A stretch of DNA of 30,952 nt from a virus. Under the pieces are notes generated by a model. That model ran no database searches, had not been told where the DNA came from, and worked only from the letters and a program-made list of their open reading frames with translations. Location of the stretch: the IMG/VR virus record IMGVR_UViG_3300042881_002943, positions 1 through 30,952 of that record; one strand, given 5' to 3'. A program made the position numbers and the translations under genes. Positions 25,934 through 30,861 of the stretch are shown here, in pieces (positions within the stretch are counted from its first letter, which is position 1; each line of letters opens with the position of its first letter).

Positions 25934-26830
25934 TCAACCGAGGACGTCGGCGATCGATACTGCAGCTCCGTTTGCCGTCGGCGGTGGTGGTTCTGGAACG
26001 CATGCTCGAAGCTCGTTCCACTGCTTGCCGTGCTCGTCGCAGAGGTTTCGCATAACCGTCGCTAGGTATTTCTTGGGGTTCTGTACCGATCCGCGAACGG
26101 CGATCCTGTCGCAAGCGTCGTTGACAGTGTCTCGATCGAGGAGGCAACCAACCCAGGCTACCTGCCAGATAAGCTCTCTGGAGAGTGGCCGACGGAGTCG
26201 GGCGAATCGGTTTGCCACTTCCACCACTTGTCCAAAAAACTCATCATCCTCCATCAACCCTTCCATCGAGCTGTCTGGTTGGGTGATGTTAGGTGATGTT
26301 ATGTTCTGTCTGGTTAGGTTAGGTCTGGTTAGGTTGGGTATCCGGGGGATTCCCCCGACGATCTCCTGACACGCCGGGGGATTCCCCCGACGATCCCCCG
26401 ACGCTTCAGGGGATTCCCCCGACGATCCCCCGACGTCAAAAAACTCCCTTTCCCTCTCGGCAATTTCCCTAGCGGAATCCTCGCTAGAGATGATCTCAAG
26501 CCAACCAACATCCGGACGAGAAGCCCATTCCATCAGCCGTTGGAATATGTCTTCGGGAAATCCTGTCACCCTTGCCAGGTGCGATAGCTTGAACGGGACG
26601 CCGCGGGAATTTGCCAGCAGCCCGCGAACAGGGCAGGTAGCAGCGAAGGCGGTAAGTACGCACCAGGCACCGTACATCGACGCGGCTTGGTCCTCAAACT
26701 CTTCGAGAAGCGTATGGTAGCCCGACGAGCTGAAATCGATCGGGAGCGAAACCCAAGCTAGTTTTTTCAGCTTTCTGGATTCGGCCCGCTCAAACGTCTC
26801 AGCCCATTTTGCGATTTTGTAGACTGTCAT
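25934..26830 (-). CDS. Putative replication initiator (298 aa) with origin-like repeats inside the gene
   Basis: The N-terminal domain (1-130) looks like a winged-helix phage replisome-organiser region: 'YGAWCVLTAFAATCPVRGLL', 'FKLSHLARVTGFPEDIFQRL' and 'LMEWASRPDVGWLEI'. Residues 133-185 are low-complexity because they are encoded by repeats (see those entries). The C-terminal domain (about 195-298) is helical, with 'ELIWQVAWVGCLLDRDTVND'. Lambda O has the same plan: DNA-binding N-terminus, linker with iterons, helicase-loader-binding C-terminus. The assignment rests on this plan plus the neighbouring nuclease genes, not on a recognised family motif. The ribosome binding site is weak. Confidence 0.6.
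   Translation of the reverse strand: MTVYKIAKWAETFERAESRKLKKLAWVSLPIDFSSSGYHTLLEEFEDQAASMYGAWCVLTAFAATCPVRGLLANSRGVPFKLSHLARVTGFPEDIFQRLMEWASRPDVGWLEIISSEDSAREIAEREREFFDVGGSSGESPEASGDRRGNPPACQEIVGGIPRIPNLTRPNLTRQNITSPNITQPDSSMEGLMEDDEFFGQVVEVANRFARLRRPLSRELIWQVAWVGCLLDRDTVNDACDRIAVRGSVQNPKKYLATVMRNLCDEHGKQWNELRACVPEPPPPTANGAAVSIADVLG
26276..26335 (-). repeat. Four 15-bp tandem repeats inside the initiator gene
   Basis: On the minus strand, AACCTAACCAGACCT, AACCTAACCAGACAG, AACATAACATCACCT and AACATCACCCAACCA follow one another with a 15-bp period, encoding NLTRP NLTRQ NITSP NITQP. It lies just downstream of the three iterons. Tandem short repeats next to iterons are typical of origin regions. 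The unit is a multiple of 3, so unlike the iterons it is also conserved as protein. Confidence 0.7.
26344..26434 (-). repeat. Three iterons, 32-bp period, likely replication origin
   Basis: GTCGGGGGATCGTCGGGGGA and the following ATCCCC recur three times on the minus strand, starting at 26434, 26402 and 26370 (the third with two differences, AGGAG for GGGGG). The period is 32 bp, so the reading frame rotates: the same DNA encodes GSSGESP, then GDRRGNPP, then EIVGGIP. DNA conservation across all three frames indicates a DNA-level function such as initiator binding. Confidence 0.75.
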
Positions 26831-26879
26831 GACTCTTGTTTTCTAAAAGACTTTTCCCAAAGTGCTGCCAACTGTCGCT

Positions 26880-27500
26880 CTAGCTGATCGCATCGGCTGA
26901 GCACAAATCAAACCGCGTTTCCTCAATAGCCTGCTCGCAGTTTGCGATCCAATCACACGAATGATTCCAGTCGATCGTATAATTGAAATCGACTCCAACA
27001 TGATGGATGTCAACAATGCCGCGATCATTGTTGTAAATGCTTCCGTAATACAGCTCGCAACTAGCTCGACGAGTGAATTCAAAAAACTGATCGTTGTCGA
27101 GTCTTAAAAGCAAGGCCTGGCAACGTTTGGCAAAATTCTCAACATAGGCATTCGTTGGGCGAGACGGCTTGTATTCAATGATGGTGTAGAAAGGTACTGC
27201 TACCATCAATTCGTGAACGAATATTGCATTCATCCTCCATCTGATAAAATCCGGCGTCCATCCATCGATACCAAACCCTTCTGGCTCGTAAAGAAATCCG
27301 CCGCCTACGCATCTAAAACTTTTTTCGACAAAAAATGGCCCTTGGTAAGATGAAAGGCGAGCGGTGTCTTCCGTATCCAACTCAAGCCATCTAGCAAACA
27401 TTGCCTCGCACTTCGATCGATAGCGAATGCCTTTGTATTCCGTAGGCGTTGCTTTATTTGAAGACATATCAATCCCTTTCTTTTGAGTATCGCCAGCCAT
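26880..27500 (-). CDS. PD-(D/E)XK nuclease-like protein (206 aa)
   Basis: ATG at 27500 with AGGAG 8 nt upstream. The core 'YKGIRYRSKCEAMFARWLEL' followed by 'LYEPEGFGIDGWTPDFIRWR' and 'YTIIEYKPSRP' fits phage PD-(D/E)XK endonuclease-like proteins (RSkxEarwa..l, then YEP, PDF, ExK). The candidate catalytic residues are Glu in 'KCEAMF', Asp in 'TPDF' and Glu/Lys in 'IEYK'. A resolvase or nuclease role in replication or recombination is likely. A later in-frame ATG at 27467 is possible. The C-terminus is Cys/Asp-rich, with unknown role. Confidence 0.65.
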   Translation of the reverse strand: MAGDTQKKGIDMSSNKATPTEYKGIRYRSKCEAMFARWLELDTEDTARLSSYQGPFFVEKSFRCVGGGFLYEPEGFGIDGWTPDFIRWRMNAIFVHELMVAVPFYTIIEYKPSRPTNAYVENFAKRCQALLLRLDNDQFFEFTRRASCELYYGSIYNNDRGIVDIHHVGVDFNYTIDWNHSCDWIANCEQAIEETRFDLCSADAIS

Positions 27501-27502
27501 CT

Positions 27503-27895
27503 CTAAAACTCCTCCCCGACCAGAAAGTACAACCATCCGCCGCCGAGCTTTTTCGGTTGCTTTGCCGCGATCCGCCAGACCAGCATCCCGAACTTTTCGG
27601 CAGCCACCCGGATCTTGGCTTTCGCATCATCCTCAGCCAGCAACTTGCTGCCGGTGTGAATCTTGACCTCATGAGCTTCGATCGTCCCATCAGGTAGTTG
27701 AACGATAAAATCCGGCGTATAGCGACACGACCTCGCCAGCTTGAACGTCAGCGGTTCATAGTCCCAAGCCAGCAACTCACCGGCCAAGACTCTCGCTGTG
27801 AGTACGTCAGCATAGGCTCGCTCAGTCGCGTTCATTTCGCCAGGCTGTCGCCGGCCAGTCCGGAACTTTCCTCGGCCCCATCGACCTTTTGACAT
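27503..27895 (-). CDS. DUF1064-like/VRR-type nuclease (130 aa)
   Basis: The ATG at 27895 has AGGAG 8 nt upstream. The pattern 'MNATERAYADVLTARVLAGE', 'AWDYEPLTFKLARSCRYTPD', 'FIVQLPDGTIEAHEVKIH' and 'KIRVAAEKFGMLVWRIAA' closely follows the DUF1064 family (ETaYAehLe..kqaGei..y.yE...lkLa....YtPDF.v...dG..E.HEvKg..), which has a PD-(D/E)XK fold. The likely active residues are Asp in 'PDF', and Glu and Lys in 'HEVK'. It is probably an endonuclease or Holliday junction resolvase-like protein for DNA processing. Confidence 0.8.
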   Translation of the reverse strand: MSKGRWGRGKFRTGRRQPGEMNATERAYADVLTARVLAGELLAWDYEPLTFKLARSCRYTPDFIVQLPDGTIEAHEVKIHTGSKLLAEDDAKAKIRVAAEKFGMLVWRIAAKQPKKLGGGWLYFLVGEEF

Positions 27896-27915
27896 AGATA
27901 GACTCCTTTGTTGCT

Positions 27916-28653
27916 TCAGAAAAGCGTAAACGCATCTTCCTTTGGACATCCATCCCACAAAGATGCCGATTGGAATGATTCGATTCGCTCCGCAATAATC
28001 GCCATCCGCGTCGATGCGTTTGGCGGACAGTACATCCCAAACCGGCTATAGCTCGATGAATTTCGTACCGCATTCGTGCTGTCGGCACTTGCCAAAGGCA
28101 ACGCGGTAAAAACTGCTGGGTCTAACATTCGCAACCCGTGCAGCTTGGTTCGTGGCCTGCCATCATTGCAGACGACTTTCATAGCTTCCGCCATGCGTCG
28201 CCACCAACGGTCGTTACCTACCGTCGCGTAAATGTCGCTTGAACCAATCGCAATGCGAGCCCAATTTGATGCGAGCCAATCAAGCCGATCTAAGCTTTCG
28301 TGCATGTGCCACACTGGAACGCCAATTGTTCCACGCAAGGACCGCTCCCATTCGTCGATTAAATCGTTGTTTTGTCGCTCGTCGCCGTCGATTACATCTG
28401 GAATGATTGCCCAATCAAACGCTGGGTGATGCTTCCAATCATCGACGAATCGATAGTAATTCAACCAGTCAATCGTTTTGCCTTGCTTCCACGCAGAGAA
28501 AGCCCCGTTGTCGATGCAAAACGATTGACACACTTCGGCCGCTGTTCCGATGTCTTCCGGTCGAAAAAACGAAATCAAGGCGTGACGATTCCTGAGGAAT
28601 CTAGCAACATCTTCCCGTGTTGCTCCGCATGGCGTTCCGTGGTAGTGAATCAT
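27916..28653 (-). CDS. TGT/DpdA-like putative 7-deazaguanine transglycosylase (245 aa)
   Basis: The ATG at 28653 overlaps the preceding TGA (ATGA). Motifs 'FCIDNGAFSAWKQG', 'WAIIPDVIDGDERQNN', 'VPVWHMHESLDRL', 'KLHGLRMLDP' and 'LASADSTNAVRN' follow the order of phage DpdA/tRNA-guanine transglycosylase-like TIM barrels. The conserved Asp in IDNGAF and IPDV, His in HGLR and the SADSTN motif are candidate active-site residues. If active, it could exchange G for a 7-deazaguanine in phage DNA, protecting it from restriction. No complete preQ0 synthesis pathway is in the window, so the base would come from the host or a salvage route. Homology is inferred from motif layout. Confidence 0.5.
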   Translation of the reverse strand: MIHYHGTPCGATREDVARFLRNRHALISFFRPEDIGTAAEVCQSFCIDNGAFSAWKQGKTIDWLNYYRFVDDWKHHPAFDWAIIPDVIDGDERQNNDLIDEWERSLRGTIGVPVWHMHESLDRLDWLASNWARIAIGSSDIYATVGNDRWWRRMAEAMKVVCNDGRPRTKLHGLRMLDPAVFTALPLASADSTNAVRNSSSYSRFGMYCPPNASTRMAIIAERIESFQSASLWDGCPKEDAFTLF

Positions 28654-30378: not shown

Positions 30379-30861
30379 TCAGCCAGCTGGCTTGAGATTC
30401 AATACATGCCGCCTTAGCCGCATCAGCCGCCGCCCAAGCCGCCGCCCAAGCCGCCGCCCTAGCCGCATCCCTAGCCGCCGCCCAAGCCGCCGCCTAGACG
30501 CATCCCTAGCCGCCGCCCAAGCCGCCTCCATAGCCGCATCCCAAGCCGCCGCCCAAGCCGCCTCCATAGCCGCCGCCAATTCCTCGTCGGTTGCGTTGCC
30601 GTGAGCGAATCGCTCAGCCACATCGATGGCGTCCTTGCTGCGCTGGTCTAACAGCAAATGCTCGATGCTCCTAGCACAATACAAGGCAAACAGTCGCAGC
30701 TCTTTGTCAGTAAGGACTCCTCGCCGCGTTGCCACCCAAACCATCCACTCTGGCGGCAGCTTGTTCCAAGCATCGAGCATCGATTCGCAATTCGCCAACG
30801 CCCAGTCACGACCTTCTTTGCACGCTTTGTATTTGTCGCAAAACTCTTCAATTGTAATCAC
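30379..30861 (-). CDS. Ala-rich repeat protein, immunity-protein-like, with apparent internal frameshift (160 aa)
   Basis: A GTG start, with GAGAG upstream. The N-terminal 95 residues (EFCDKYKACKEGRDWALANC onwards) resemble the phage 'putative immunity protein' family ('kAC..G..Wa...'). The tail begins with Ala/Trp repeats (EAAWAAAWDAAMEAAWAAAR) and changes abruptly to Arg/Leu repeats (RRRLGRRLGMRLGRR). Adding one G near 30490 would restore the Ala frame to a stop at 30350-30352, giving about 170 aa. So there is a one-base deletion in the GC-rich repeat, either real or a sequencing error. Confidence 0.5.
   Translation of the reverse strand: MITIEEFCDKYKACKEGRDWALANCESMLDAWNKLPPEWMVWVATRRGVLTDKELRLFALYCARSIEHLLLDQRSKDAIDVAERFAHGNATDEELAAAMEAAWAAAWDAAMEAAWAAARDASRRRLGRRLGMRLGRRLGRRLGRRLMRLRRHVLNLKPAG

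Follow-up and report, generated by a model that had tools for sequence, protein, structure and literature searches.

A candidate replication origin inside the initiator gene of a freshwater tailed phage, with iterons adjoining a pentanucleotide tract

To our knowledge, the replication origin is not known for most environmental phages; origins inside initiator genes are textbook for phage lambda. Here we analysed an IMG/VR virus record of 30,952 bp (the whole stretch is called the window), a probably incomplete genome, given the 41.8 kb record of a relative. We conclude, with a probability of roughly 0.8, that the origin of this tailed phage, whose host is probably of planctomycete type, is embedded in its own initiator gene and uses a scheme of iteron binding and tract opening. 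An earlier note, made from the DNA letters, had proposed a phage origin inside this gene; two computational results support that proposal, iterons in the corresponding linker of relatives, and replacement of the gene as a module in a near-identical phage. The features referred to below are as follows.

25935-27489, minus strand: exchangeable replication module, with non-homologous genes in its place in a phage whose flanking DNA is 95-99% identical to that of the window
25934-26830, minus strand: putative replication initiator gene, 298 aa (ORF and N-terminal family alignment)
26441-26830, minus strand: N-terminal domain, aa 1-130, winged-helix-like, presumed iteron-binding (AlphaFold pLDDT 88-98)
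26246-26401, minus strand: linker, aa 144-195, predicted disordered (pLDDT <50)
26006-26245, minus strand: C-terminal helical domain, aa 196-275, presumed to act in helicase or primase recruitment (pLDDT about 62-75)
26406-26437, minus strand: iteron unit 1, frame GSSGESP
26374-26405, minus strand: iteron unit 2, frame GDRRGNPP
26342-26373, minus strand: iteron unit 3, frame EIVGGIP, with a degenerate first half-site
26409-26419, strand-neutral: palindromic core GGGGAWTCCCC of unit 1
26377-26387, strand-neutral: palindromic core GGGGAWTCCCC of unit 2
26345-26355, strand-neutral: palindromic core GGGGAWTCCCC of unit 3
26271-26335, minus strand: pentanucleotide tract, 13 tandem pentamers NACNN, coding NLTRPNLTRQNITSPNITQP

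Iterons and an adjoining pentanucleotide tract

The array occupies 26342-26437 inside the 298-aa ORF, and its three 32-bp units lie exactly 32 bp apart, as the earlier note had said. On the coding (minus) strand they read GACGTCGGGGGATCGTCGGGGGAATCCCCTGA, AGCGTCGGGGGATCGTCGGGGGAATCCCCCGG and CGTGTCAGGAGATCGTCGGGGGAATCCCCCGG. Each unit is built of a direct half-site, GTCGGGGGA, which comes again 11 bp further along and there opens into the palindrome GGGGAWTCCCC; in the unit nearest the pentamer tract, the first half-site is degenerate (GTCAGGAGATC, 26360-26370). Among the three units 25 of 32 columns are invariant; variation is limited to the edges and to half-site 1, and the invariant core is GATCGTCGGGGGAATCCCC (Fisher p=0.001 against the remainder of the unit, for a core picked after the data were seen). 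Translation bears out the three reading frames reported before, the units encoding GGSSGESPEA, GDRRGNPPAC and EIVGGIPR. The lag-32 identity of 54/60 is the top repeat of the window among lags 20 to 60, and 5000 synonymous-codon permutations of the initiator gene gave a mean of 29.8 and a maximum of 42, none reaching 54. The iterons are thus conserved at the DNA level, and the earlier claim that selection acts here on DNA and not on protein stands. With one mismatch allowed, GGGGAWTCCCC occurs in the 30,952 bp only at the three iteron cores (shuffles: mean 0.44 sites, 2 of 100 reaching three). A search of viral contigs for the exact window iteron returned no further copy. Elsewhere in the window, an Ala/Arg-rich repetitive ORF (30379-30861) has strong lag-24, lag-36 and lag-59 repeats at about 30431-30600.

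The five G5 runs on the coding strand, together with the strong hairpins that are possible there, could also be read as G-quadruplex or RNA hairpin elements acting in mRNA or DNA. RNA folding is no better than that of shuffles (z=-1.23), there is no Rfam match, and what relatives keep is the palindrome and not the G-runs (TGCGGGAWTCCCGCA); we reject this reading as exceedingly improbable.

Six bases past the iteron array begins a tract that the earlier note had overlooked. Its pentamers, from 26335 to 26271, are AACCT, AACCA, GACCT, AACCT, AACCA, GACAG, AACAT, AACAT, CACCT, AACAT, CACCC, AACCA and GACAG: position 2 is A and position 3 is C in 13/13, whatever the codon position (Fisher p=7e-5 against the other pentamer positions). 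The lag-5 signal of 28/40 is the highest in the window (next, 22/40), and only 1-2 of 5000 synonymous permutations match it. On the opposite strand the tract is NNGTN, mostly KGTTN. At 45% GC it is moderately AT-rich, not a classical A+T-rich element; a 60-bp stretch from 26280 is among the least stable 4% of the window. GC skew has no clear inflection at 26 kb and is uninformative, because the genes lie nearly all on one strand.

The initiator protein and its exchangeable slot

The AlphaFold model is confident for the N-domain and less so for the helical C-domain. Between them, most of the iteron DNA and the entire pentamer tract code for the predicted disordered linker; with the protein disordered there, the DNA would be free to act as a cis element. 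The window initiator gave no useful match in Pfam, PHROGs, PDB sequences or a phage tblastn; in particular, it matched no O-like PHROG or Pfam family and has no RepA_N domain (Pfam, up to E=1). A Foldseek search of PDB and BFVD with the predicted structure found nothing significant. Structurally, the N-domain comes closest to entries whose titles name an initiator or Rep (4pql, 4pt7, 5kbj, 4pta), weak matches at Z about 5: for 4pql and 4pt7, Z is 5.3 and 5.0, below the level that means much, with rmsd 3.5 and 3.2 over 80 and 77 aligned residues. The likeness of the modelled fold to plasmid initiator N-terminal domains is therefore only suggestive.

The phage of record IMGVR_UViG_3300020530_000015 (L003) is 95-99% identical to the window on either side of 25935-27489. 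There the two-gene segment is swapped for an unrelated initiator gene, which matches phrog_2509, 'replication initiation protein' (E=6.5e-50), and is related to replication initiation proteins annotated in Salmonella phage SPN1S, Pseudomonas phage phiPSA1 and other phages. This gene carries its own short iterons, of CGTCACGC/GCGTGACA types as judged by eye, followed directly by (GAGAA)n, and the exchange breakpoints fall outside the repeats, which gives no ground for seeing these as a recombination hotspot. Since a recognisable initiator with its own iterons fills the same slot of a near-identical phage, the slot is a replication module; the exchange is one between modules, in which each of two unrelated initiators brings its intragenic array along.

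Some neighbouring genes may be recorded here. (i) Two adjacent genes, 26880-27536 and 27503-27958, have a match to phrog_190 (Holliday junction resolvase-like); for the former, which belongs to the exchanged module, the match is weak. (ii) The gene at 27916-28710 matches the phage queuine tRNA-ribosyltransferase-like family (phrog_887, E=5e-75); phage genes of this type are often DpdA of 7-deazaguanine DNA modification, and the window genome might carry modified guanines.

The initiator family and the distribution of pentamer tracts

When the full initiator or its N-domain alone was the collection query, only an identical shortened contig or nothing was returned, and related phages reached through the terminase and DpdA-type neighbour genes had no initiator homologue. 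Homologues were found by a degenerate DNA pattern for GAW...C..RG followed by an alignment scan, giving a family of 57 viral and six bacterial loci, the latter in genomes of Verrucomicrobia LW23 (two loci), Pirellulales, Rhodopirellula, Planctomyces and Hydrogenedentes. Judged by alignment, the window N-domain belongs to this family of initiators of Planctomycetota and Verrucomicrobiota phages assembled here. It is 28-40% identical to members over about 110 N-terminal residues and conforms at every position invariant in a nine-sequence N-domain alignment: W9, E14, R19, W26, GAW54-56, A63, C66, RG69-70, L72 and W110. The C-terminal part of one member (L133) matches phrog_16167, 'replication initiation protein' (E=1e-18). 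In some initiators of the family (L167, L175, L176, and proteins with phrog_5718 hits in the tract scan described below) an HNH-endonuclease-like insertion (CQWC...HH...CRKCH) lies between the N-domain and the iteron linker.

The family linker starts directly after a conserved GWLE motif, and repeated 7-mers in it exceed synonymous shuffles at p<=0.05 in 29/51 members, the window included. The common iteron core, TGCGGGAWTCCCGCA, is enriched beyond codon choice; AATCCCGC is present in 23/50 members against 3.7 expected from synonymous shuffles. Read in one register the common iteron gives GAGIPQE (25 members), and in a different one CDNPAP/CGIPAP (6 members), while L155, L178, L194 and other members lack it and have other repeats instead. 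The comparison of homologous initiator genes that the earlier note had suggested as a check thus found, over 50-odd loci, repeats in the same linker in differing registers and with differing peptides. That note had not recognised the iteron: the window core can now be related to the common family type through GGGAWTCCC, although the family PWM scores no window linker site above threshold. The family motif CTGCGGGATTCC and the three window copies of GGGGAWTCCCC have GGGATTCC in common, and the two cores may descend from one ancestral binding site.

The pentamer periodicity is likewise a family property. The best short period is 5 in 37/54 family genes and 3 in one, and the mean lag-5 signal is 26.8 of 40, against 19.8 for synonymous shuffles. 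The coding-strand pentamer is R-G-A-A-N in 40 members, whose recovery rested on the N-domain and not on the tract; at codon positions 1/2/3, G is conserved at 91/90/92%, the first A at 88/90/87% and the second at 91/95/91%, with N free. These 40 were retained by lag-5 signal and phasing to RGAA, which inflates the absolute percentages somewhat; such retention is unable to create independence of codon position, which is therefore not a product of the selection of members. Spacing from the iterons is also constrained: the first GAA lies 12-14 bp past the last YCGCA/TGCGR half-site in 22/33 members having both (11 at 12 bp, 9 at 13, 2 at 14), so that the iteron-tract junction itself spans reading frames. 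Two members (L149:3383-3428, L186:3390-3432) combine the usual iteron orientation with a tract on the opposite strand, their coding strand reading CTTCC/GTTCC; this might bear on the direction of replication.

Under a strict tract criterion, tracts were counted in 21/54 family initiator genes (45 kb); two, of differing composition, were counted in 256 kb of flanks, and one in 950 kb of contigs fetched via unrelated genes, that one lying in the initiator gene of the exchange partner. The window tract, NACNN on the coding strand and without (RGAAN)n there, is not counted by this criterion and so is a divergent, not a typical, member of the pentamer pattern.

These data bear on a rival reading, in which slippage during replication, or tandem duplication, would have left the repeats behind in a disordered linker and they would have no function as DNA. 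Linkers commonly expand tandem repeats, this one is predicted disordered, and in-frame 21-bp repeats in L132, L144 and L181 also yield peptide repeats. Slippage does not, however, account for window copies that differ in frame and vary at their edges but not in their core, nor for a pentamer equally conserved at all three codon positions with its position 5 free, which neutral microsatellite decay would not give. The preferred spacing of the tract from the iterons and the rarity of strict tracts in other phage contigs also speak against it, and we consider it very unlikely beside an origin in the initiator gene.

Tracts of this kind reach well beyond the family. A viral-collection scan with the pattern (RGAAN)6 gave at least 120 stretches, of which 80 were examined as loci. 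Among the 80 listed, 69 were in an ORF of >=150 aa, 64 of these on the coding strand, at a median residue of 140. Scanning 61 such proteins gave as commonest matches the PHROG families of replication initiation proteins (phrog_1408, 2149, 16167 and 12556, with about 30 each), with DnaD-like loaders, primosomal proteins and O-like proteins among the others. Repeated 8-mers were present in the 118 bp upstream of (RGAAN)6 in 90% of cases, whereas 29% of the control windows taken from these loci had them. It is possible that a mid-gene (RGAAN)6 tract after iteron-like repeats is a general origin signature. Individual loci (L205-L284, e.g. L205:4350-4378, L257 and L279) have it mid-gene in many unrelated initiator families, with iteron-like repeats before it.

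In TP901-1, lambda, HK639, Tyrion, LESphi2, Dewey and JBD44 a pentamer tract was absent or weak, and the period-5 tract was absent from 2/8 SPN1S/phiPSA1-type genes examined (Xanthomonas SAC, Cobetia Carin1). The tract, absent or different in several named phages, is therefore widespread, not universal. At the same position of initiator-region genes, phi11 (L197:9999-10090) and VvAW1 (L324:1650-1700) have a period-3/6 purine tract, which in phi11 comes after ACGTTAC-type repeats. Our search of the open-access literature (subscription literature being outside its scope) found no description of a pentanucleotide phage-origin element, and the tract is the part of this system most likely to be new.

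Known origins and the proposed scheme

Intragenic iteron origins are already known, in lambda O and pSK41 rep. In lambda ori, O-bound iterons inside gene O open an adjoining strand-asymmetric tract, and O binds single-stranded DNA of that tract (PMC5043065, PMC7466680). Lambda ori and the O genes of Stx phages resemble the window in having iterons in the middle of the initiator gene and a tract adjoining them. They differ in other respects: in lambda the iterons measure 18-19 bp and the A+T-rich tract has almost only purines on one strand, with a weak lag-5 signal (19/40), whereas the window has 32-bp GC-rich units and a tract of period 5; the window protein has no O-like sequence match. The Rep of pSK41 binds through its N-domain to Rep boxes central in rep, its ori-encoded centre is a linker, and its C-terminal domain contacts the replication machinery (PMC5703833). 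RepA_N origins of this type share the three-part plan of the window, but they are plasmid and not phage origins, and the window protein has no RepA_N Pfam match. The SPN1S/phiPSA1-type initiators that take the window's slot in L003 have iterons and then directly a pentamer tract; the protein is unrelated, the iterons are GTCCGC/GCGGAC and GGTAAC/GTTACC, and the tract is exact, not degenerate. The intragenic origin is supported as a function, whereas placing its protein in the lambda O or the RepA_N family fails on sequence in both cases. By analogy with lambda ori and pSK41, the nearest tested precedents, the same scheme is the best explanation of the window origin.

Initiators often autoregulate, and iteron-like palindromes look like operators, so the repeats might be an operator for autoregulation, or some other regulatory site of an initiator or repressor, and no origin. 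The repeats sit mid-gene, however, and not at a promoter, and the periodic tract adjoining at a preferred spacing and a plan shared with lambda ori and pSK41 ori also point away from an operator, which we hold to be highly improbable.

We infer the following scheme for the origin. The winged-helix-like N-domain of the initiator would bind the three 32-bp iterons; the nucleoprotein complex would then open the adjoining pentanucleotide tract, one strand of which would be captured in register; and a host DnaB-type helicase would be loaded, the C-terminal domain presumably helping. What would set this system apart is that opening or strand capture makes use of a repeat of 5 nt.

In Bacillus oriC, opening and helicase loading are guided by short, strand-specific repeats, the DnaA-trios or DRE, which lie next to double-stranded initiator sites (PMC10201434). 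DnaA-trios have period 3 and are bound by DnaA; the window tract has period 5, goes with a phage-encoded initiator and lies inside a gene. The family genes do not follow the DnaA-trio pattern of a period-3 repeat next to DnaA boxes (best lag 5 in 37/54, 3 in 1). We know of no other established analogue of a short strand-specific repeat code than the DnaA-trio/DRE. Somewhat short of an even chance, in our estimate, is the broader reading that many unrelated initiator families share an undescribed cis element: a tandem pentamer tract, in most cases RGAAN but also GAGAA or KGTTN, that keeps a preferred distance to the iterons, is independent of codon frame and would be a DnaA-trio-like, strand-specific 5-nt code for duplex opening or helicase loading, recognised by a component common to different initiators (the host helicase or loader, SSB, or a shared winged-helix property).

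The signature of an N-terminal DNA-binding domain, iterons, 12-14 bp, a pentamer tract and a C-terminal domain locates candidate origins in phages of uncultured bacteria, and the codon-independent pentamer pattern raises a testable question, whether a protein steps five nucleotides along the DNA during origin opening.
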